The notes below the pieces were generated by a model. That model saw nothing but the letters and a program-made list of their open reading frames with translations. It made no database searches and had not been told where the DNA came from. From positions 1-21,309 of IMG/VR virus record IMGVR_UViG_3300030390_000774: DNA of 21,309 bases; one strand, written 5' to 3'. This DNA is from a virus. Position 1 is the stretch's first letter. Every line of letters starts with the position of its first letter. The translations under genes were made by a program, and so were the position numbers. Positions 12,949-21,309 of this stretch are shown here, piece after piece.

Positions 12949-13249
12949 ATGTGTAATAGAGCAAGAAACCAAACTATGTTTAACAGTAAGGTCAAGAAAG
13001 AGAGAATATCTTTTTGCAAGAGCTTTATATTATAAGTTATGTAAGGAACAAACAAATAACTCATTAGAAAAAATTGGAGCATCTTTAGGGTTTAGTCACG
13101 CTAATGTAATGCATAGTATAAATAAAATATATCCAGAGATAAAAGAATATGATACTGACTCGTATTATGCATATTTAAAATGTAAAAAGCTAACCAAAAA
13201 GTTAAAGCAACAACAATTTGATTTGTTGAATGAAGCAATTAACAATTAA
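12929..13249 (+). CDS. DnaA domain IV-like DNA-binding protein
   Basis: 106 residues. RSRKREYLFARALYYKLCKE (21-40) then SLEKIGASLGFSHANVMHSI (45-64) matches the C-terminal DNA-binding domain of bacterial DnaA, whose helices recognise the DnaA box (the SH/DHxTVxH region is here FSHANVMHSI). The AAA+ and DnaB-interaction domains of DnaA are absent, so it cannot act as a full initiator alone. It may mark a phage origin, recruit or block host DnaA, or act as a regulator. The second ATG (12935) is an alternative start. Confidence 0.7.
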   Translation: MIMETIKCVIEQETKLCLTVRSRKREYLFARALYYKLCKEQTNNSLEKIGASLGFSHANVMHSINKIYPEIKEYDTDSYYAYLKCKKLTKKLKQQQFDLLNEAINN

Positions 13250-13266
13250 CAAATAATTAATATAAC

Positions 13267-13282
13267 TGTTTATTAAAAAAGA
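13267..13282 (+). repeat. 16-bp repeat before the ParB-like gene
   Basis: TGTTTATTAAAAAAGA lies 1 base before the ATG at 13284 and recurs exactly at 18170-18185, before the tail-chaperone gene. The A-run may be the ribosome-contact region used by Bacteroidota, which lack strong Shine-Dalgarno sites. It follows a 34-base gap without terminator. Confidence 0.5.
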
Positions 13283-13283
13283 T

Positions 13284-13892
13284 ATGAGAAAAAAGGTATC
13301 CATAAAAGAAGTAAGACCAAACAAAGCAAATCCTAGAATAATAAAGGATAATAAATTCCGTAAATTAGTAAAGAGTATAAAAGAATTTCCAGAAATGTTG
13401 GAGAAAAGACCTATTGTTGTTGATGATAACAATATTGTTTTAGGTGGCAATATGAGATTAAAGGCTTCTCTTGATGCTGGTTTAAAAGAAGTGTGGATAG
13501 ATACAGCAGAAGGATGGACAGAAGAACAAAAAAATGAGTTTATAATAAAAGACAATGTAAACTTTGGCGAATGGGAATGGGATATGTTGAGCAACGAATG
13601 GAACTCTGCTGAGCTAGAGGACTGGGGTTTAGATGTTTGGCAAAATGCAGATGATGTAATTGCCATGGTAAATAAAGGAGACGAGTATTCTGAATGGGTA
13701 GGGATGCCAGAATTTGAATCCAAGGAAGAACCATATAAAGTTATTATTAATTTCTTAAATGAAAAGGATAGAGATAAATATGTAGAAGAACATAAGTTAA
13801 AATTTTTAGCACAAAAAGAAGGCGGAAGGACATGGAGTGCAAATTATCCATTTAAAGAAAGACAAGACCTAAACGCTTTGTCTTATGAATAA
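13284..13892 (+). CDS. ParB/sulfiredoxin-like domain protein
   Basis: 202 residues. The N-terminal ParB-like domain is visible: PNKANPRIIKDNKFRKLVKS (12-31), then RPIVVDDNN (42-50) and the nucleotide-binding type motif LGGNMRLKASLDAG (53-66), followed by EQKNEFIIKDN (81-91). Proteins of this family in phages may be nucleases or CTP/ATP-binding switch proteins and commonly accompany DNA methylases or other modification enzymes. The C-terminal part (about 150-200, KVIINFLNEKDRDKYVEEHK) looks like a separate small alpha/beta domain. It overlaps the glycosyltransferase gene by 8 bases, suggesting coupled function. Confidence 0.75.
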   Translation: MRKKVSIKEVRPNKANPRIIKDNKFRKLVKSIKEFPEMLEKRPIVVDDNNIVLGGNMRLKASLDAGLKEVWIDTAEGWTEEQKNEFIIKDNVNFGEWEWDMLSNEWNSAELEDWGLDVWQNADDVIAMVNKGDEYSEWVGMPEFESKEEPYKVIINFLNEKDRDKYVEEHKLKFLAQKEGGRTWSANYPFKERQDLNALSYE

Positions 13893-14772
13893 ATATCCAG
13901 TATATATAATATCTAAAGGAAGGTGGGAAAATCCACTAACAGCAAAGTTTTTTAAAAAGGATGGTACTGATTTTAAAATAGTAGTTGAGCCACAAGAATA
14001 TGAAAAGTATTGTGAATCAATTGGTAAAAAATATGTACTTGCTCTACCTTTTTCTAATTTAGGTGTAGGTTCTTATCCAGCTAGGAATTTTTGTTGGGAA
14101 AATAGTATTGAAAACGGACACGATAGACATTGGGTTTTTGATGATAACATATCTAGAATAAGAAGAGTATTAAAAGGTAAAAAAATACCATGTAACTCAA
14201 ACAAAGCTTTAAGTATTTTAGAAGAATTTACAGACAGATATACTAACATAGGAATAACAGGCTTTAATTATTCAACATTTGTTGTGCCTGGTGGCTCGGA
14301 CAAAAAACCATTTTATTTAAACACGCATTCATATAGTGCAATGCTTATGAAAAATGATATGCCTTATAGGTGGAGGTTAAAATATAATGAAGATGTGGAC
14401 TTATGTTTGCAAGTATTAAGTAAGGGATATTGTGTTGTGTCATTTAACGCTTTTACTATAGACAAAACTAGCACAGTTGCTAAAATGAAAGGTGGTAATC
14501 AAGATGAGTTATATAAAGGAAACGCATATGAAAAGAAAGTACTAAAGGCAAGGAGTTTAGAAGAAATATGGCCACAATATTGCAAAACCATAATACGATT
14601 TAATAGACCTCATCATTATGTGGATTGGACTGGACATTTTAAACATGGTTTAATTAGAAGAAAAGATATTGATTGGAATAAAATAAAAGAAAGAAAACAT
14701 AATTTAAAATTAACACAAGTAAAGGAAATAAAAGACGAATCACTTAAAAACTTTTATAAAGATAATAAATGA
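13885..14772 (+). CDS. Glycosyltransferase of the TET-associated (TAGT) type, probable DNA glucosyl/glycosyltransferase
   Basis: 295 residues. The order of motifs fits the GT-A-like TET-associated glycosyltransferase family: YIISKGRW (7-14), IVVEPQEY (32-39), LPFSNLGVGSYPARN (54-68), RHWVFDDNI (81-89) with the Asp pair expected to bind the metal-nucleotide sugar, and NEDVDLCLQVL (168-178) for catalysis. Comparative genomics has linked this family to sugar addition on hydroxymethylated bases in phage DNA. Here it overlaps a ParB-like gene and an epimerase gene, and lies just before terminase. No TET/JBP dioxygenase or base-hydroxymethylating enzyme is visible in the window, so the acceptor is unknown. 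Confidence 0.7.
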   Translation: MNKYPVYIISKGRWENPLTAKFFKKDGTDFKIVVEPQEYEKYCESIGKKYVLALPFSNLGVGSYPARNFCWENSIENGHDRHWVFDDNISRIRRVLKGKKIPCNSNKALSILEEFTDRYTNIGITGFNYSTFVVPGGSDKKPFYLNTHSYSAMLMKNDMPYRWRLKYNEDVDLCLQVLSKGYCVVSFNAFTIDKTSTVAKMKGGNQDELYKGNAYEKKVLKARSLEEIWPQYCKTIIRFNRPHHYVDWTGHFKHGLIRRKDIDWNKIKERKHNLKLTQVKEIKDESLKNFYKDNK

Positions 14773-15626
14773 AAAAAATAGTAATCACTGGGGGTGCTGG
14801 GTTTATAGGTACTAATTTAATAAACAACTTAATAAATAATAATATAGTAGAAGCAAAAAACATATTTGTTATAGATAATTTTTATACAGGAGAGAAAAGG
14901 AATATGGTTGCAAATGTTTGTTATATACAAGGTAATACTTGGGATATAGATAAGTTATTATATGAAGAAAGATATATTGACACGTTATTTCATTTTGGTG
15001 AATACTCTAGAATAAGCACATCGTTTGATGATATTGATTATGTAATGAAAACAAATCTTTATGGAACAAGTAAGGTAATAGAATATTGCAATAAAAAAGA
15101 TATAAAGTTAATTTATTCTGCATCATCTTCTAAATTTGGAGATAAAGAAAACTTAAGTCCTTATGCTTGGACTAAATCAAAGGCAGTAGAATTAATAAAG
15201 AATTATAATAAATGGTATGGCTTGTCTTATGAAATATGCTATTTCTTTAATGTGTATGGCAAATACCAAATAACAACAGGAAATTATGCTACTGTAATAG
15301 GTATATTTGAAAATCAGATATTAAAAAGAGAAACATTATCTGTCGTAAAACCAGGTGTGCAATCAAGATGCTTTACACACGTGGATGATGTCGTTAGTGG
15401 TGTTGTTAAGGCAGTTCAATATAATAGTAATCACGAATGGTATTTTCAAAACCCAAAAGCATATAGCATAATACAAGTAGCTAATATGTTTAATCAAGAT
15501 TGGAGATTTGTAGATGAAAGAAAAGGAGAAAGATTTTGTTCGCCTACTATTGAAAATGATACCAAAGAATTATTAGGCTGGGAAGCAAAAAAAGAATTAA
15601 AAGATTATATAAATACAGTGAAATAA
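14769..15626 (+). CDS. NAD-dependent nucleotide-sugar epimerase/dehydratase (extended SDR)
   Basis: 285 residues. The Rossmann start ITGGAGFIG (6-14) binds NAD(P). SASSSKFGD (117-125) and YAWTKS (132-137) provide the Ser/Thr and the Tyr132/Lys136 of the SDR catalytic set. Length matches UDP-glucose 4-epimerase-like enzymes, slightly short. The likely product is an altered nucleotide sugar. Its start overlaps the glycosyltransferase stop (ATGA), so the two probably act in sequence: this enzyme makes the donor, the transferase uses it. Sugar specificity cannot be read from the sequence. Confidence 0.82.
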   Translation: MKKIVITGGAGFIGTNLINNLINNNIVEAKNIFVIDNFYTGEKRNMVANVCYIQGNTWDIDKLLYEERYIDTLFHFGEYSRISTSFDDIDYVMKTNLYGTSKVIEYCNKKDIKLIYSASSSKFGDKENLSPYAWTKSKAVELIKNYNKWYGLSYEICYFFNVYGKYQITTGNYATVIGIFENQILKRETLSVVKPGVQSRCFTHVDDVVSGVVKAVQYNSNHEWYFQNPKAYSIIQVANMFNQDWRFVDERKGERFCSPTIENDTKELLGWEAKKELKDYINTVK

Positions 15627-15628
15627 CA

Positions 15629-15970
15629 ATGAGCAAACTAGACAATTTAAAGCCTTTTAAAAAAGGAGAGAGCGGTAACCCTAATGGAAGACCTAAAGGT
15701 AGCTTAAATCGAAGCACAGTAGCTAAAAAATGGCTATCTACTAATCAAGAGTATAAGAACCCACTAACAAGTGAGAGTGAAAATCTTTCACAAGAAGATA
15801 TAATGACCCTTGCTTTAATTAACAAAGCACGTAAAGGAGATGTAGGAGCTTATAAAGCATTAATGGATAGTGGTTATGGTAACCCCAAAGATTCATTAGA
15901 CTTAACAACATCGGAAAATATTAATATTGACTTTAAAGAAATAATTGAAGGACTTAAACATAGGACATAA
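15629..15970 (+). CDS. Terminase small subunit-like protein
   Basis: 113 residues. FKKGESGNPNGRPKGSLNR (10-28) is the DUF5681-type N-terminal motif found in small terminase subunits and related phage proteins; a helical middle (EDIMTLALINKARKGDVGAY) follows. The small subunit recognises the phage DNA and regulates the large subunit. It lies immediately upstream of, and overlaps by 26 bases, the large terminase gene, which supports the assignment. Starts ATG after AATAACA. Confidence 0.78.
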   Translation: MSKLDNLKPFKKGESGNPNGRPKGSLNRSTVAKKWLSTNQEYKNPLTSESENLSQEDIMTLALINKARKGDVGAYKALMDSGYGNPKDSLDLTTSENINIDFKEIIEGLKHRT

Positions 15971-17156
15971 GTTTCTACCTTTTAATAAAGTAGATTCAAG
16001 ATATTTTATATACACAGGTGGAAGAGGTTCAGGAAAATCTTATGCTGTTGCTGGTGCTTTAGTATATTTAATCTTAACACCAAACCAAACTATTCTTTTT
16101 ACAAGATATACATTACGTTCTGCATCAATATCTATTATACCAGAGTTTAAAGAAAAGCTGGAAAAAATGGAAATCATGCATTTGTTTAAGATAACTAAAG
16201 ATGAAATAATAAACATCTCTAATGGTTCTAAAATACTATTCAGGGGAATTAAAACCTCATCAGGAGACCAAACAGCTAATCTTAAATCATTACAAGGGAT
16301 AACTACTTGGGTTATGGATGAGGCAGAAGAGTTAGTTGATGAAAATATATTTGATAAGATAGATTTATCTGTAAGGGATAAGCTTACTGACAATAGAGTT
16401 ATATTAATATTAAATCCAGCTACAAAAGAACATTGGATATACCAAAGGTTTTTTCAAAACAGAGGAGTTAAAGAAGGTATTTGTACAACTAAAAATGATG
16501 TTACTTATATGCATTCTACTTATAAAGATAATTTAGAGTTCTTATCTGATAGTTATATATCACAAGTAGAGCAAATGAAAATAAATAGACCTTCTAAATA
16601 TAAACATCAAATATTAGGAGGTTGGCTAGAAAAAGCTGAAGGTGTTATTTTTAACAACTGGACAATAGGAGAGTTTAAAGAAATAAGCAAGTCTGTATTT
16701 GGACAAGATTATGGATTTAGTAATGACCCTACAACACTATTAGAGACAAGTATAGATAAGAACAATAGAAAGATATATATTAAATTACATTTTTGCCAAC
16801 CTGGTCTTACAACGTCTGAAATTAATGTATTAAATATAAAATTTGCAAAAGATAATCTAATTATTGGAGATAGTGCAGAGCCAAGACTTATAAATGAGTT
16901 AGCAAGAACCTGTAATATGTTGCCAGCTATTAAAGGTCAAGGTAGTGTAGTATTTGGAATATCCTTATTACAAGATTATGATTTAATTATTGACCCAAAT
17001 AGTATTGAATTAATTAAAGAGTTAAATAATTACTCTTGGTTAGAAAAGAAATCACAAACACCAATAGATAAATACAATCATTGCATAGATGCTATACGTT
17101 ATGCTGTATCTTATCAGTTAGAGAATCCAACACGAGGAGATTACTTTATATATTAA
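15945..17156 (+). CDS. Terminase large subunit
   Basis: 403 residues. ATPase: Walker A GGRGSGKS (25-32), Walker B TTWVMDEAEEL (120-130, Asp125/Glu126). Nuclease: Asp255 in GQDYGFSNDP, Asp309 in IIGDSAEP and Asp382 in HCIDAIRYA give the RNase H-like acidic triad. It is the motor that cuts and packages DNA into the prohead, of the Terminase_3/PBSX-like type. The start is TTG at 15945, inside terS, since no ATG precedes Walker A in this frame. The C-terminus is short compared with many large subunits (about 420-550 residues). Confidence 0.92.
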   Translation: MKDLNIGHKFLPFNKVDSRYFIYTGGRGSGKSYAVAGALVYLILTPNQTILFTRYTLRSASISIIPEFKEKLEKMEIMHLFKITKDEIINISNGSKILFRGIKTSSGDQTANLKSLQGITTWVMDEAEELVDENIFDKIDLSVRDKLTDNRVILILNPATKEHWIYQRFFQNRGVKEGICTTKNDVTYMHSTYKDNLEFLSDSYISQVEQMKINRPSKYKHQILGGWLEKAEGVIFNNWTIGEFKEISKSVFGQDYGFSNDPTTLLETSIDKNNRKIYIKLHFCQPGLTTSEINVLNIKFAKDNLIIGDSAEPRLINELARTCNMLPAIKGQGSVVFGISLLQDYDLIIDPNSIELIKELNNYSWLEKKSQTPIDKYNHCIDAIRYAVSYQLENPTRGDYFIY

Positions 17157-17185
17157 TTACAAAACTTTTATCATTTTATTTTGAG

Positions 17186-17215
17186 TTATAAACATTTTTG
17201 ATTATATTTATATAT
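17186..17215 (+). promoter_or_regulatory. Upstream regulatory element, copy C
   Basis: 29 of 30 bases match copy A (6575-6604). The core 17188-17205 is ATAAACAT-TT-TTGATTAT, followed by TATATTTAT (17203-17211) and an A-rich leader ending AAAACA before the ATG at 17240. It lies in the 83-base gap after terL, in which no hairpin terminator is seen. Confidence 0.6.
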
Positions 17216-17239
17216 TATTAATTACTAAAAAACAAAACA

Positions 17240-17590
17240 ATGATAGAATTTAATAAATATGATTTTATAAGTGATTTAAAAGATTCAATGGGTGAATTTA
17301 TAGAAGATTCAGAATTTGAGGATGAGGAAGACATAACAGATGATATGCAACAATTTATACACGAACAAATAGAAAATCAAATAATTTACTATTATGATTG
17401 TTGGCGAATATGTATGAAAGAAGGTTGTACAGATTTTTTTATGGAACAAACAGGTACAACAGCAAAAAATATTACAGAACTTGCTTACTGGACTTTATGG
17501 GATATAGTACAAGAAAGTATTAATTATCATTTAGAAGCTAAAGAATTACAAGAAAAATTAAAAGAACCAGAAACATTCAAACATTTTTAA
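17240..17590 (+). CDS. 116-aa very acidic protein, unknown function
   Basis: First gene below element C, with the AAAACA leader. The N-terminal third is dense in Asp and Glu (SMGEFIEDSEFEDEEDITDD), and the rest is helical with aromatic residues (IIYYYDCWRICMKEGCTDFF). A strongly negative surface, in a unit controlled like the other early-type blocks, would suit a host-factor or DNA-mimic inhibitor, but this is conjecture. No family is recognised. Confidence 0.6.
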   Translation: MIEFNKYDFISDLKDSMGEFIEDSEFEDEEDITDDMQQFIHEQIENQIIYYYDCWRICMKEGCTDFFMEQTGTTAKNITELAYWTLWDIVQESINYHLEAKELQEKLKEPETFKHF

Positions 17591-17592
17591 CT

Positions 17593-17817
17593 ATGAGTAT
17601 ATTTATAAACACTACAACAACTTTGTGGGCAGACCACGGAATAGTAAACATTGAAGCAACTACGCTAAACCCAAAAGAAGGCTATGTGCATTTAGAAATA
17701 GATGCAAGGGAATTGTTAAAAGATATTCCATCACTATATGAGTTATGTGTACAAGCCATAGAAAAAGAAGATAAACATATCAAAGAAAAATATAAACAAT
17801 TCAAAAAAAAATTATGA
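17593..17817 (+). CDS. 74-aa protein, unknown function
   Basis: ATG 2 bases after the previous stop. The N-terminal half is beta-rich (IFINTTTTLWADHGIVNIEA) and the C-terminal half is a charged helix (LYELCVQAIEKEDKHIKEKY) ending in Lys. The stop overlaps the next ATG (ATGA). No known family. Confidence 0.55.
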   Translation: MSIFINTTTTLWADHGIVNIEATTLNPKEGYVHLEIDARELLKDIPSLYELCVQAIEKEDKHIKEKYKQFKKKL

Positions 17818-17906
17818 AAACAAATAAAAAGTACGAAGGCATAATGATTTCATCAATGGTAGCTTGGTTAGGGATAATATTTATCCTAGCTTTGCTTAAT
17901 GCATAA
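17814..17906 (+). CDS. 30-aa single-membrane-segment micro-protein
   Basis: Starts in the ATGA overlap and ends inside the start of the next gene (8-base overlap). A short basic head MKTNKKYEG is followed by one membrane helix (MISSMVAWLGIIFILALLNA). Membrane micro-proteins of this type occur in phages near lysis or exclusion functions; the role is unknown. Both overlaps support translation. Confidence 0.5.
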   Translation: MKTNKKYEGIMISSMVAWLGIIFILALLNA

Positions 17907-18114
17907 AAAAATACAGACAGCTATCAGTTGGTGTTTAAAAAAAAAAATAAAAATATATGTAAAACCTATAAGTAAAGGATATAAATCAAAAGTTAAAATA
18001 CATATTAATATATCTGGTAAAGAACAAATAGGAAAAGAAACATATTACCAAGACATTAAATTGTCAGAAAAAATACAAGAATTATACTTACATATGTATA
18101 ATACTTATAAATAA
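17899..18114 (+). CDS. 71-aa basic protein, unknown function
   Basis: ATG at 17899 lies in the end of the membrane micro-protein gene. Lys-rich strands in the middle (KKIKIYVKPISKGYKSKVKI) and a helix at the end (LSEKIQELYLHMYNTYK). Last gene before a hairpin terminator, so it closes the unit started by element C. No family is recognised. Confidence 0.55.
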   Translation: MHKKIQTAISWCLKKKIKIYVKPISKGYKSKVKIHINISGKEQIGKETYYQDIKLSEKIQELYLHMYNTYK

Positions 18115-18133
18115 TTATTTGTTGATTAGTTAG

Positions 18134-18170
18134 AAAAGGGAGTTGCTTTATACAAAGTAGCTCCTTTTTT
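18134..18170 (+). terminator. Intrinsic terminator before the tail genes
   Basis: A stem of about 12 bp, GGGAGTTGCTTT (18138-18149) with AAAGTAGCTCCT (18154-18165) including G-U pairs, around loop ATAC, followed by T6 (18165-18170), A-run on the 5' side. The tail-chaperone ATG is only 19 bases past the T-tract, leaving no room for a separate promoter downstream of it. Confidence 0.85.
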
Positions 18171-18185
18171 GTTTATTAAAAAAGA
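18170..18185 (+). repeat. 16-bp repeat before the tail assembly chaperone gene
   Basis: Exact copy of the sequence at 13267-13282. Here it starts at the end of the terminator T-tract and ends 4 bases before the ATG at 18190. Likely a shared translation leader, or part of a shared control site. Confidence 0.5.
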
Positions 18186-18189
18186 CTTT

Positions 18190-18846
18190 ATGCAAATTGA
18201 GGTAACAATACCGAGTACATTAAGAGATGTAAGATTAAAAGATTATCAAGATTATTTAAAAATTGAAGAACCTAATAATGATGATTTATTAAAATGTATT
18301 TTAAATATTAATCAAGACAAACTAGGTAAAGTAAAATCTAAAGATGTAGATTATTTAGTTACACATATCACAAAATTGTTTGAAACAAAACAAGACATAA
18401 TACCTACATTTAAAATGTATGGTGTTGAGTATGGTTTTATACCTAATTTAGATGAAATAACCTATGGAGAAAATAAAGATATAACTTCTTATATTAGAGA
18501 TTGGGAAACAATGAATAAGGCAATGGCTGTGCTTTATAGACCAATAAAACAAAAACAAGGACACAAGTATTTAATAGAAGAATATGAGGGTAGCCACAAA
18601 TATAGTGAGCTAATGAAAGATGCTCCTTTAGATGTAGTAATGGGTGCAATGGTTTTTTTTTACAATTTAACGAGCGTATTGCTGAAATATATGCCGAATT
18701 ATTTGGAGGAGGAAGCAATGAAGGAACAGATGCAAGGAGCAATTTCTCTAGAAAGTGGAGTGGCTATTCGGAAATATATTGCCTTAGTCAAGGAGATGTT
18801 ACAAGATTTAAAAAAGTTGCAAAACTTCCCTTACATCAATGTTTAA
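18190..18846 (+). CDS. Tail assembly chaperone-like protein, frame 0 (G-type)
   Basis: 218 residues. Start set at ATG 18190; an in-frame TTG at 18169 lies inside the terminator T-tract and is unlikely. MQIEVTIPSTLRDVRLKDYQ opens a domain continuing to GVEYGFIPNLDEITYGE and DWETMNKAMAVLYRPI, then YLIEEYEGSHKYSE and LDVVMGAMVFFYNL. I recognise this as a conserved Bacteroidota phage tail-region protein; position before neck and tail genes and the overlapping second frame fit tail assembly chaperones, which bind the tape-measure protein. A U9 run at codons 155-158 permits -1 slippage. Confidence 0.6.
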   Translation: MQIEVTIPSTLRDVRLKDYQDYLKIEEPNNDDLLKCILNINQDKLGKVKSKDVDYLVTHITKLFETKQDIIPTFKMYGVEYGFIPNLDEITYGENKDITSYIRDWETMNKAMAVLYRPIKQKQGHKYLIEEYEGSHKYSELMKDAPLDVVMGAMVFFYNLTSVLLKYMPNYLEEEAMKEQMQGAISLESGVAIRKYIALVKEMLQDLKKLQNFPYINV

Positions 18847-18914
18847 TGTATTTGGCATTTGAAAAGGAAAAAGCAGAACTAGAATCATTAATAATAAAAA
18901 ATAAAATTAAATAA
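18190..18914 (+). CDS. Predicted -1 frameshift product of the tail chaperone (GT-type, about 241 aa)
   Basis: Ribosomes slipping back one base at T9 (18653-18661) would join residues 1-157 of the frame-0 protein to 84 residues read in the -1 frame from 18660 to the stop at 18912-18914. The -1 frame is open from 18609, has no ATG before 18846, and encodes protein-like sequence: FNERIAEIYAELF, then NFSRKWSGYSEIYCLSQGDV and FKKVAKLPLHQCLMYLAFEK. The FS-K-W-x-x-Y-x-x-IY and YLxFEKEK patterns recur after similar genes in related phages. This mirrors the G/GT arrangement of long-tailed phages. No stem-loop downstream was established. Confidence 0.55.
18653..18661 (+). other. U9 slippery run (candidate -1 ribosomal frameshift site)
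   Basis: Nine consecutive T in phase GTT-TTT-TTT-TAC in frame 0. Tandem Phe codons in this run allow both tRNAs to re-pair after a one-base backward slip. It is located about two thirds into the chaperone gene, where the -1 frame is open. Confidence 0.55.
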
Positions 18915-18915
18915 T

Positions 18916-19380
18916 ATGCAAGGCTTTTATAACCTATCAGATAAAATTAGAGAAACCCTACAATTAGACCAATATGTTAACACTGTAACCTACGGAGATA
19001 TATTTGATGTAGACTTAAACAAACAAACTATATTTCCCTTATCACACTTTATGGTAACTAATGCAGTATTACAAGAGAGTGTTTGGAATTTTAGTATATC
19101 TCTATTATGTATGGATATAGTAGAAGAAAACAAAAACTTTGCAGAAGGAATACCACAAGAGTTTAGGGGAAACAACAATGAGCAAGATGTATTTAACACA
19201 CAACTTGCAGTAGGTAATAGACTAATTGAATTATTAAGAAGAGGGTCATTATATGTAGAGCTTTATCAATTGCAAGGAGATGCAACCTTTGAGCCATTTA
19301 CGGACAGATTTGAAAACAAATTAGCTGGTTGGACAATTTCATTTAATGTAGAAATACCTAACGGAATGACAATATGTTAA
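18916..19380 (+). CDS. Tail/neck structural protein, conserved in Bacteroidota phages
   Basis: 154 residues, ATG 1 base after the -1 frame stop, which itself supports the real end of the upstream coding at 18914. Sequence MQGFYNLSDKIRETLQLDQY, then VNTVTYGDIFDVDLNKQTIF, PLSHFMVTNA, NNNEQDVFNTQLAVGNRLIE and DRFENKLAGWTISF. I recognise the pattern from tail-module proteins of flavobacterial phages; size and place would fit a tail-completion or tail-terminator protein. It overlaps the next gene by 7 bases. Confidence 0.6.
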   Translation: MQGFYNLSDKIRETLQLDQYVNTVTYGDIFDVDLNKQTIFPLSHFMVTNAVLQESVWNFSISLLCMDIVEENKNFAEGIPQEFRGNNNEQDVFNTQLAVGNRLIELLRRGSLYVELYQLQGDATFEPFTDRFENKLAGWTISFNVEIPNGMTIC

Positions 19381-19904
19381 ATAAGATAAAGGCTGAATTA
19401 CAAGCATTTGGTAAATATGTAGTACAACAATCAAGGTCTAACCTTACAAAGCAAAAAAGAAATGTAAGTAAAAACCTTTATAATAGTCTTAAATATAATT
19501 TACAAGAAAAGGATAATAGTTTTTTTTTAAGTTTTATTATGGATGAGTACGGAACATTTTTAGATAGAGGTGTAAGAGGTGCAGACCCTAGTTTAGTAAA
19601 AAACGGAAAACAAAAAGGTGCTGATAGTCCTTATAGTTATAAAACTAAAAAACCACCAATGCAACCATTAGCAGATTGGGCAAAAAAAAGGAACATAAGA
19701 TTAAGAGATGAAAAAGGTAGATTTAAAAAAGGTAATTATAGAACAATAGGATTTATACTACAACGAAGCATATTTGCACAAGGTATAAAACCCAGTCTTT
19801 TTTTTACCAAACCTTTTGATGTTGCTTTTAAAAGATATAAAAAAGGTATTAAAAAAAGTTTTATGCAAGATATAATAGATTTAATAAAAAACAACAATGA
19901 GTAA
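19374..19904 (+). CDS. HK97 gp10-like neck/tail-completion protein
   Basis: 176 residues. The basic N-terminal helix and the conserved loop DEYGTFLDRGVRG (57-69), then a Lys/Gly-rich segment and C-terminal FFTKPFDVAFKRYKKGIKKS, match the layout of HK97-gp10-like proteins, in which Y-(A)-x-x-(V/L)-(E/D)-x-G is the signature. They sit at the head-tail joint. The neighbouring chaperone and tail genes agree. Overlaps both flanking genes by 7-8 bases. Confidence 0.6.
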   Translation: MLNKIKAELQAFGKYVVQQSRSNLTKQKRNVSKNLYNSLKYNLQEKDNSFFLSFIMDEYGTFLDRGVRGADPSLVKNGKQKGADSPYSYKTKKPPMQPLADWAKKRNIRLRDEKGRFKKGNYRTIGFILQRSIFAQGIKPSLFFTKPFDVAFKRYKKGIKKSFMQDIIDLIKNNNE

Positions 19905-21039
19905 AATAAACGTAAGAAGTCCTTACTTCGTAAACTACAAAAATAATAATTTAACAAGCGCAACGCTTGAAATAAGAATATACGAAGGTGGTGCAGAAAC
20001 ATCTTGGCAAGGGAATCCACAATATACATTAACCACTACAGCTATAAATGAGTCAATAAGTTTTGAAATAGCAGAATTAATAAAGGACTATATACCAGCA
20101 GCATTTAATGGAACATATCCAAACTCATCATCTACAGCAGATGATAATACTACTGTTTATGTAGATTATAGAATAACAGAATTTATTACAGGAGTGCCAA
20201 CATTATTAAATCCAGTTTTCGGTATAAGAGCTTTTTATGGTTATGGTTTTTTTGAAGATGGAGCAAACCCTCAACTATTACAAGGCTATTTACAATCAAA
20301 CACAACTATATTAAAATCAGATGATGATGCCTTAAGGATTCCAATAGATAACGAAAACACAACCTCTGTTGCTTTCCTTAACAAAGGAGAGCAGATATAT
20401 GTTTTCACACCTACTTCTGGATTAAAAATACAAGACCAAATACAATATGTTAGCACAGCTTCTGCTGATGTAGATAATTATAGAGAAAGAGTAATAGCAT
20501 CTGGAGGTACGTTTGAAGATAACCCTTGCATACAAGAGTTTTTAAGAAACGAAACTATATATCCAGTTGATGAGGTTATTATAAACGCTGTAGAGGGCGT
20601 TACAGTATTGAACATAGAAAACATTGAAGAATGTAAATACACTCCTTACAAGTTAACCTTTATAAATAAGTTTGGAGCTTATCAAGATATATGGTTTTTT
20701 AAGAATTCACAACTATCCATAAGAACAAATGAAGATAAATATAAATCCAACATTTTAAACAATGGAAGTTATAATACATATAACCCACAAATAAAATTAC
20801 TTAATAAAAATGGTAACCAAAGATTAAAACTTAATAGTGGTTTTTACCCAGAGTCTAACAACAAAGTCTTTGAACAATTATTTTTAAGTGAAAAGGTATG
20901 GATTGAATACGAGCAAAAAACATTAGGGATAACAATAGAATCTAAATCATTTAATTATAAAACAAGTGTTACAGATGGGGTTATAAATTACACTATAGAT
21001 ATTCAATTTGCATTTGATACAATTAACAATATAAGATAA
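19897..21039 (+). CDS. Tail structural protein (possible tail tube or baseplate component)
   Basis: 380 residues. MSKINVRSPYFVNYKNNNLT opens a beta-rich protein with repeated hydrophobic strands, a NPVFGIRAFYGYGFFEDGAN segment near residue 110, and LTFINKFGAYQDIWFFKNSQ (about 252-271). The 'FINKFGAYQDIWFFK' pattern is one I associate with tail-module proteins of Bacteroidota phages. No enzymatic motif. It lies between the neck-like protein and another tail gene that runs off the window. Specific tail position is not certain. Confidence 0.55.
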   Translation: MSKINVRSPYFVNYKNNNLTSATLEIRIYEGGAETSWQGNPQYTLTTTAINESISFEIAELIKDYIPAAFNGTYPNSSSTADDNTTVYVDYRITEFITGVPTLLNPVFGIRAFYGYGFFEDGANPQLLQGYLQSNTTILKSDDDALRIPIDNENTTSVAFLNKGEQIYVFTPTSGLKIQDQIQYVSTASADVDNYRERVIASGGTFEDNPCIQEFLRNETIYPVDEVIINAVEGVTVLNIENIEECKYTPYKLTFINKFGAYQDIWFFKNSQLSIRTNEDKYKSNILNNGSYNTYNPQIKLLNKNGNQRLKLNSGFYPESNNKVFEQLFLSEKVWIEYEQKTLGITIESKSFNYKTSVTDGVINYTIDIQFAFDTINNIR

Positions 21040-21309
21040 ATGAATTTAGAATTATATATAAATAATGTGAGAGTTGATTTATTTAAAGATGAAGCTATTA
21101 CATTAACCGATTCACAACAAAATATAAAAGATATAAGCCTAGTATTTGCGCCTTTTAGTCAGCAATTTAATTTACCAGCTTCGTCTACTGTAAATAAATT
21201 ATTTAAACATTATTATAACAATGATATAATTAATGGATATGATGCAAGATTTAGAGTTGATGCTATTATTAAATTAGATGGAGCTGATTATAAAACAGGT
21301 CAAATTAGA
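21040..21309 (+). CDS. Tail protein, 3' end outside window
   Basis: ATG at 21040 directly follows the preceding TAA, and the frame is open to the last base (90 codons). It starts MNLELYINNVRVDLFKDEAI, then LTDSQQNIKDISLVFAPFSQ and QFNLPASSTVNKLFKHYYNN, a pattern (DSQQNIKDI...F..F.Q.F..PAS..N...FKH.YN) typical of a large tail protein in flavobacterial phages. Likely a tail-tip or baseplate structural protein. Only the N-terminus is seen. Confidence 0.6.
   Translation, partial: MNLELYINNVRVDLFKDEAITLTDSQQNIKDISLVFAPFSQQFNLPASSTVNKLFKHYYNNDIINGYDARFRVDAIIKLDGADYKTGQIR

Follow-up and report, generated by a model that had tools for sequence, protein, structure and literature searches.

A near-constant W domain partner of TAGT glycosyltransferases in a phage ParB cassette: a candidate DNA-glycosylation module

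Genes of the ParB-TAGT cassette

The IMG/VR record IMGVR_UViG_3300030390_000774, a marine phage contig of 21,309 bp that was analyzed in its entirety (the window), is classed as linear and is probably a fragment. Its plus strand carries a cassette encoding a ParB-like protein, a TAGT glycosyltransferase and an extended short-chain dehydrogenase/reductase (SDR), followed directly by terminase genes. Comparison of more than 200 related sites in four separately seeded collections revealed that this branch of TAGT is almost always accompanied by a domain of about 65 residues, termed W, rather than by TET, an epimerase or a terminase. In the window, W forms the last part of the ParB-like protein. 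The features of the locus are as follows:

13284..13892, plus strand: ParB-like protein, 202 aa; N-terminal ParB CTPase fold (residues 1 to ~115), disordered linker and C-terminal W domain
13692..13889, plus strand: W domain, residues 137-202, EWVGMPEF...WSANYPFKERQDLNALSYE; partner domain of the window's TAGT branch
13885..14772, plus strand: TAGT glycosyltransferase (PF20691), 295 aa, GT-A fold; D86-D87-N88, D170, D172 and GGN 203-205 conserved
14769..15626, plus strand: extended-SDR nucleotide-sugar enzyme, 285 aa, 4-epimerase-like, an optional part; motifs GGAGFIG, SSS and YAWTK
15629..15970, plus strand: terminase small subunit-like protein, DUF5681 (Pfam E=3e-14); neighbor outside the core
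15945..17156, plus strand: TerL, Terminase_3 (Pfam E=1.2e-40); neighbor outside the core

A sequence-only reading of the window had proposed this gene order and its tight junctions, and both were borne out by the open reading frame (ORF) calls: ParB-like and TAGT genes overlap by 8 bp, TAGT and SDR genes by 4 bp, and a gap of 2 bp separates the SDR gene from the small terminase gene. The four genes counted in that reading become five once TerL is included. The order from ParB to TerL is repeated across dozens of contigs and the 8-bp overlap after ParB was found in 45 distinct ParB genes, indicating that the arrangement is not due to chance.

The glycosyltransferase had been assigned to the TAGT family, reportedly named by Iyer et al. 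in 2013, on the basis of the motifs SKGRW (residue 10), VEPQEY (34) and FDDN (85). These motifs were confirmed, and Pfam PF20691 matched the protein with E=1.1e-44 and 153 bits (cut-off 27.5) over all 205 profile positions; PHROG 842 was matched as well. Membership in an ordinary lipopolysaccharide or protein glycosyltransferase family, which the sequence-only reading had named as an outcome that would speak against it, was ruled out by this profile match. An AlphaFold model computed with 28 relatives (pLDDT 91.6) displayed a GT-A/GT2-like fold and aligned to GT-A enzymes such as GalNAc-T2 with Z ~14 over ~190-220 residues. The closest viral predicted models were phage TAGTs, including one annotated as beta-glucosyl-HMC-alpha-glucosyltransferase (HMC, hydroxymethylcytosine; TM ~0.65), while the fold neighbors also comprised protein O-GalNAc transferases, TarP and RmlT. 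In sequence, too, the protein most resembles phage TAGTs, whereas a search of the PDB with the TAGT profile yielded no credible relative. D86-D87 are invariant in the 28 TAGT sequences, D170, D172 and G203-G204-N205 are likewise conserved, and the acidic nucleotide-sugar/metal motif is intact in the window protein.

PHROG ParB profiles matched the ParB-like protein at 1e-20, and its model superimposed on M. xanthus ParB (7bnr) with Z 13.2 and 1.6 A over 90 residues, corresponding to the ParB CTPase fold. R58, the arginine of the nucleotide-contact motif, is retained; among 53 homologues, at least 90% have it too. According to the model, the C-terminal half consists of a disordered linker and W, and a Pfam scan showed no helix-turn-helix parS-binding domain and no C-terminal dimerization domain. 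No ParA family matched among the window ORFs scanned (8 and 10 in two scans), the window being part of a genome. A long antisense ORF (13202-13723, minus strand), which overlaps ParB, stays open in 10 related genomes as well; it probably arises from the codon use of ParB.

The SDR matched Epimerase PF01370 in Pfam (E=7.5e-34) and keeps the NAD motif GxxGxxG (GGAGFIG), the serine (SSS) and the YxxxK motif (YAWTK), while it missed every cut-off of the NCBIfam equivalogs. The best PDB matches were UDP-xylose synthases (UXS). In these UDP-glucuronate decarboxylases the glutamate of the TSE motif is catalytic, and in the window it is aligned with serine, so that the UXS assignment was rejected. Since the NAD, serine and YxxxK motifs are kept and the UXS glutamate is missing, the protein is likelier to be a 4-epimerase than a decarboxylase, as judged from its sequence motifs.

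The W domain, its carriers and the variable slot

The W domain follows a characteristic layout: W-x-G/N-MPEF, a hydrophobic strand, a helix with the pattern I-x-x-x-F-x-x-E-x-D-x-x-x-F, and then (KTKSI)W-x-P. A profile built from ParB tails alone picked up W in other contigs on the N-terminal side of TAGT (E 1e-5 to 1e-2); shuffled ORFs gave no match to an iterated W profile. No family covered the stand-alone or TAGT-fused copies in Pfam, PHROG and NCBIfam scans. A tblastn search of phages with the 67-aa W also gave no match, W probably being too short and divergent. The ParB model was poor over W (pLDDT 41-87) and we therefore claim no fold for it.

The pairing of W and TAGT was recovered from all four starting points, the loci inside one collection being related to each other. 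When viral contigs were seeded with TAGT, W accompanied 50 of the 60 distinct TAGT sets; among the ten W-less sets, six start at a contig end, and in three contigs (L059-L061) the tail of ParB resembles a diverged W. Seeding with ParB revealed TAGT downstream at 78 of 80 loci, the remaining two contigs ending before the expected place. TAGT-seeded contigs from bacterial genomes contained W in 35 of 38 cases, including one in which ParB, W and TAGT form a single chain (L234). Finally, TAGT lay downstream of W at 79/80 W-seeded loci, drawn from at least 562 confirmed relatives. Conversely, every W detected in 574 kb of related contigs lay within 1.2 kb of a TAGT, and control phage DNA (236 kb) contained no W; as the W patterns were built from copies adjoining TAGT, divergent W elsewhere could escape.

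W is carried in different ways. It forms the tail of ParB in many phages and a stand-alone gene (about 70-125 aa) in others, or is fused to TAGT, as in the cultured phages Aeh1, POP12 and Kuja and, with weaker-scoring copies, in phage 65 and PTm1. In three bacterial contigs, W follows N-terminal regions without a clear ParB match (L230, L244, L258). The ParB-like gene noticed from the sequence alone thus retained its identity and changed its role: it is mainly a carrier of W, which many relatives have without ParB. In six contigs (L318-L322, L314), stand-alone W and TAGT are separated by an ORF of 168 aa; it contains an NPPY motif, as is typical of methylases, and has no Pfam match. A second ParB type, found in Lactobacillus c5 and phi jlb1, Haloarcula HHTV-2, Nocardia NTR1, Porphyromonas phage 005b and Salmonella SPF_0923, has another C-terminal domain (PQYEPTG...ALVIIDxDxAI) and is paired with a different TAGT branch. 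In Lactobacillus phage c5 (L219 1-3878), which is tractable in the laboratory, the cos site is directly followed by ParB of this type, TAGT, two small genes and TerL.

In relatives, an exchangeable gene is located between ParB and TAGT or 3' of TAGT. This slot was found to hold a second TAGT or a gene for a GT32 enzyme (PF04488), a sulfotransferase (PF13469), an FkbM methyltransferase (PF05050/TIGR01444) or a protein of ~310 aa that matches GT32 weakly. The SDR itself was present in 23 of the 36 ParB-type sets from the viral contigs seeded with TAGT, in 27 of 61 ParB-seeded sets and in none of the 38 bacterial-genome loci. The proposed nucleotide-sugar epimerase is therefore present as an epimerase-like SDR, but as an optional rather than a constant part of the module. 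At four loci (L188, L189, L196, L217) a sulfotransferase-family gene lies between ParB and TAGT; the sugar could be sulfated there. Vibrio phage Kuja (L133 3760-5855) encodes two W-TAGTs, a UDP-glucose dehydrogenase and, adjoining it, the closest relative of the window SDR among the phages searched, with which the window SDR has the motif GEYSRV/I in common. The Kuja genes hint, at the sequence level, at a donor derived from uronic acid.

The sequence-only reading had further suggested a coupling to packaging. The ParB form indeed occurs repeatedly beside the terminase, but this is not general: stand-alone W-TAGT pairs reside mostly among replication and recombination genes (helicase, primase, exonuclease, NinG), which suggests a packaging link for the ParB form only. 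The slot beside the terminase is occupied by ParB and methylase genes in phages of Streptococcus, Staphylococcus and Bacteroides, and by ParB-TAGT in phages of Lactobacillus, Porphyromonas and Nocardia. When 22 contigs, the window among them, were clustered with P12024S and P12024L (24 genomes in all), TAGT and ParB were the two most widespread of the families common to at least four genomes, ahead of TerL. The identity of TerL can drop to ~30% in relatives whose TAGT is 71-79% identical.

The nearest cultured phages at the DNA level are Nonlabens P12024S/L (35.7 kb, marine hosts). Judged by synteny with P12024S, about 15 kb, mostly structural, would be absent from the window's genome. No portal or capsid gene was recognized 3' of TerL (17157-21309); the portal of P12024S is likewise far from TerL, so that the window's layout looks normal for the group. 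In P12024L (L124 16409-18671, gp26-28), a TET/JBP gene (PF12851), TAGT (gp27) and an N6/N4-type DNA methylase gene adjoin. P12024S, from the same host, has other genes at this site and the cassette thus looks exchangeable. The window TAGT shares only 31% identity with the P12024L TAGT over 60% of its length.

Target and acceptor of the sugar transfer

We consider it probable that the cassette constitutes a phage DNA-glycosylation module with a two-part core of TAGT and W. The role of W would be to link TAGT to DNA, in this phage by way of a ParB clamp. The ParB fold, which acts as an NTP-dependent DNA clamp in its relatives, would load onto phage DNA, and the W tail would bind TAGT and thereby recruit or position it. 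TAGT would then move a sugar from a nucleotide sugar, probably 4-epimerized by the adjacent SDR, onto a base of the phage DNA. The transfer would occur late, near packaging, and might shield the DNA from host nucleases. A sugar-modified base in the phage DNA, as the sequence-only reading had proposed, is likewise inferred. DNA is favored as the target because of the TAGT family membership, the TET-TAGT-methylase cassette of P12024L and the ParB carriers of W, and furthermore because ParB and methylase genes fill the same terminase-side slot and stand-alone pairs have replication and recombination neighbors.

Several observations weigh against this interpretation. The window protein scored below the Pfam cut-off for ParB_N (20.7 vs 26.3 bits), no helix-turn-helix was seen in it, and the nucleotide-contact arginine is missing from some divergent ParB homologues. 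The characterized TAGT of T6 is very remote, at a branch length of ~9, and was missed by our local TAGT profile; the tree is unrooted, and the placement of T6, P12024L and the c5 group is unsure owing to long branches. In Vibrio phage 1.076.O, TAGT sits between portal and head-morphogenesis genes. The sulfotransferase, FkbM and GT32 enzymes of the slot are typical of ordinary glycans. Moreover, enzymes that would activate an acceptor base were sought in vain. The sequence-only reading had seen no TET/JBP or thymidylate-synthase-like gene in the window, and none was detected among the window ORFs scanned; as the window is a fragment, the absence of TET from it is by itself weak evidence. Neither TET/JBP (PF12851) nor a dCMP hydroxymethylase of the thymidylate synthase (TS) family (PF00303) exceeded the cut-off in any of 75 related contigs (5-88 kb), the same searches being positive in P12024L and in control genomes, respectively. 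TET and TS were likewise below the cut-off in six cultured ParB-TAGT phages (c5, HHTV-2, jlb1, NTR1, Porphyromonas 005b, Salmonella SPF_0923).

A search of relatives for 2OG-FeII_Oxy_3 also returned no match, and no hydroxylase-like family stood out by eye, without systematic annotation, among 22 clustered contigs. A weak TET-like match in one genome (G043) remained below the cut-off (20 bits). TS-family genes, for either a synthase or a hydroxymethylase, were found in the large phages with fused W-TAGT (Aeh1, 65, PTm1, Kuja, POP12) and in henriette. The acceptor-making step is missing in every checked relative of the window's type under about 90 kb.

These results bear directly on how a DNA base could be glycosylated. 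In a two-step hypermodification, the base would first be activated by an enzyme outside the fragment (TET, a hydroxymethylase or an unrecognized hydroxylase) and W would be an accessory. We regard this route as possible, if doubtful, and as a sub-case of the DNA reading, so that our confidence in the two overlaps. The missing 15 kb inferred from P12024S synteny would leave room for such an enzyme, and the TS-family genes of the large fused W-TAGT phages and of henriette fit with it, but the empty TET and TS searches in the 75 contigs and six cultured phages, and the absence of 2OG-FeII_Oxy_3 or of any prominent hydroxylase-like family, argue against it. Alternatively, W-TAGT might glycosylate a native base or site directly, with no prior hydroxylation, while ParB or other carriers deliver the enzyme and the exchangeable gene elaborates the sugar; we rate this as rather improbable.

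A serious rival, albeit an unlikely one in our estimate, is the glycosylation of virion proteins. TAGT-W would decorate a capsid, portal or tail protein, GT32, sulfotransferase and FkbM enzymes would elaborate the glycan, and the ParB-like protein would serve as a scaffold or an unrelated carrier. The tailoring enzymes, the lack of acceptor-base enzymes in relatives, the position beside terminase or head genes (the window, Vibrio phage 1.076.O), and the protein O-GalNAc transferases among the fold neighbors are all in line with a protein target. However, stand-alone W-TAGT pairs occur mostly in replication and recombination neighborhoods, ParB carries W at a large share of loci, ParB and methylase genes fill the same slot in other phages, and the P12024L TAGT adjoins TET and methylase. 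Least probable appears an action on a host surface polysaccharide, for instance in superinfection exclusion or receptor masking, which would make the placement beside ParB and terminase an incidental late-gene arrangement. Enzymes with GT2-like folds, such as TarP and RmlT, often have polysaccharide or teichoic acid as their substrate, and an SDR epimerase is typical of surface-sugar pathways, but the near-constant linkage to W, including the fusion with ParB, and neighborhoods of DNA metabolism or packaging rather than lysogenic conversion speak against such a role.

Relation to known systems

TAGTs, including solitary ones, are already known; the W partner, the ParB carriers and the tailoring slot appear to be new. 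We found no description of the W domain or of a ParB-TAGT pair in a literature search that did not cover the founding TAGT paper, and an archaeal-virus paper covering HHTV-2 held no information on TAGT or ParB. A large share of phage TAGTs is solitary; with W as partner, they can be understood as one half of a defined two-component module, which occurs in viruses of several bacterial phyla. Since a related ParB-TAGT pair is present in cultured viruses (c5, phi jlb1, HHTV-2), the target can be tested directly. Should it prove to be DNA, the acceptor chemistry would have to be new or hidden, and the slot would imply that DNA glycans are more varied, with sulfated or methylated forms possibly among them. 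Direct glycosylation of a native base, if true, would define phage DNA glycans of a class for which neither TET nor hydroxymethylase is required.

The window TAGT has the family profile, the GT-A fold and the DD and GGN motifs in common with known TAGTs (T6 beta-glucosyl-HMC-alpha-glucosyltransferase; P12024L gp27). In contrast to these systems, its branch showed no TET, dCMP hydroxymethylase or alpha/beta-glycosyltransferase partner, and has a near-constant W instead; P12024L is the reverse, with TET and no detected W. 'Solitary' TAGTs, which lack an alpha- or beta-glycosyltransferase and whose function is given as unknown, were reported for 288 of 753 phage genomes with a glycosyltransferase (PMC13216743). 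The window's TAGT likewise has no recognizable alpha- or beta-glucosyltransferase beside it; the conserved W partner, the ParB carriers and the tailoring slot are additions to what the TAGT passages of that paper contain. The T-even arabinosyl and glucosyl cytosine systems (T4, T6, RB69) offer an analogy, as a sugar is placed on phage DNA by a phage glycosyltransferase together with sugar-nucleotide enzymes, but they first make the acceptor nucleotide with a thymidylate-synthase homologue, and none was found for the window's group. Phage ParB fusions to methyltransferases have been listed in a ParB survey whose main text does not contain the word "glycosyltransferase" (PMC12704722). These ParB-like/DNA-methylase pairs and fusions (PHROG 498; PMC12704722) combine a ParB-fold module with a DNA-modifying enzyme beside the terminase; in the window, a glycosyltransferase takes the place of the methyltransferase.

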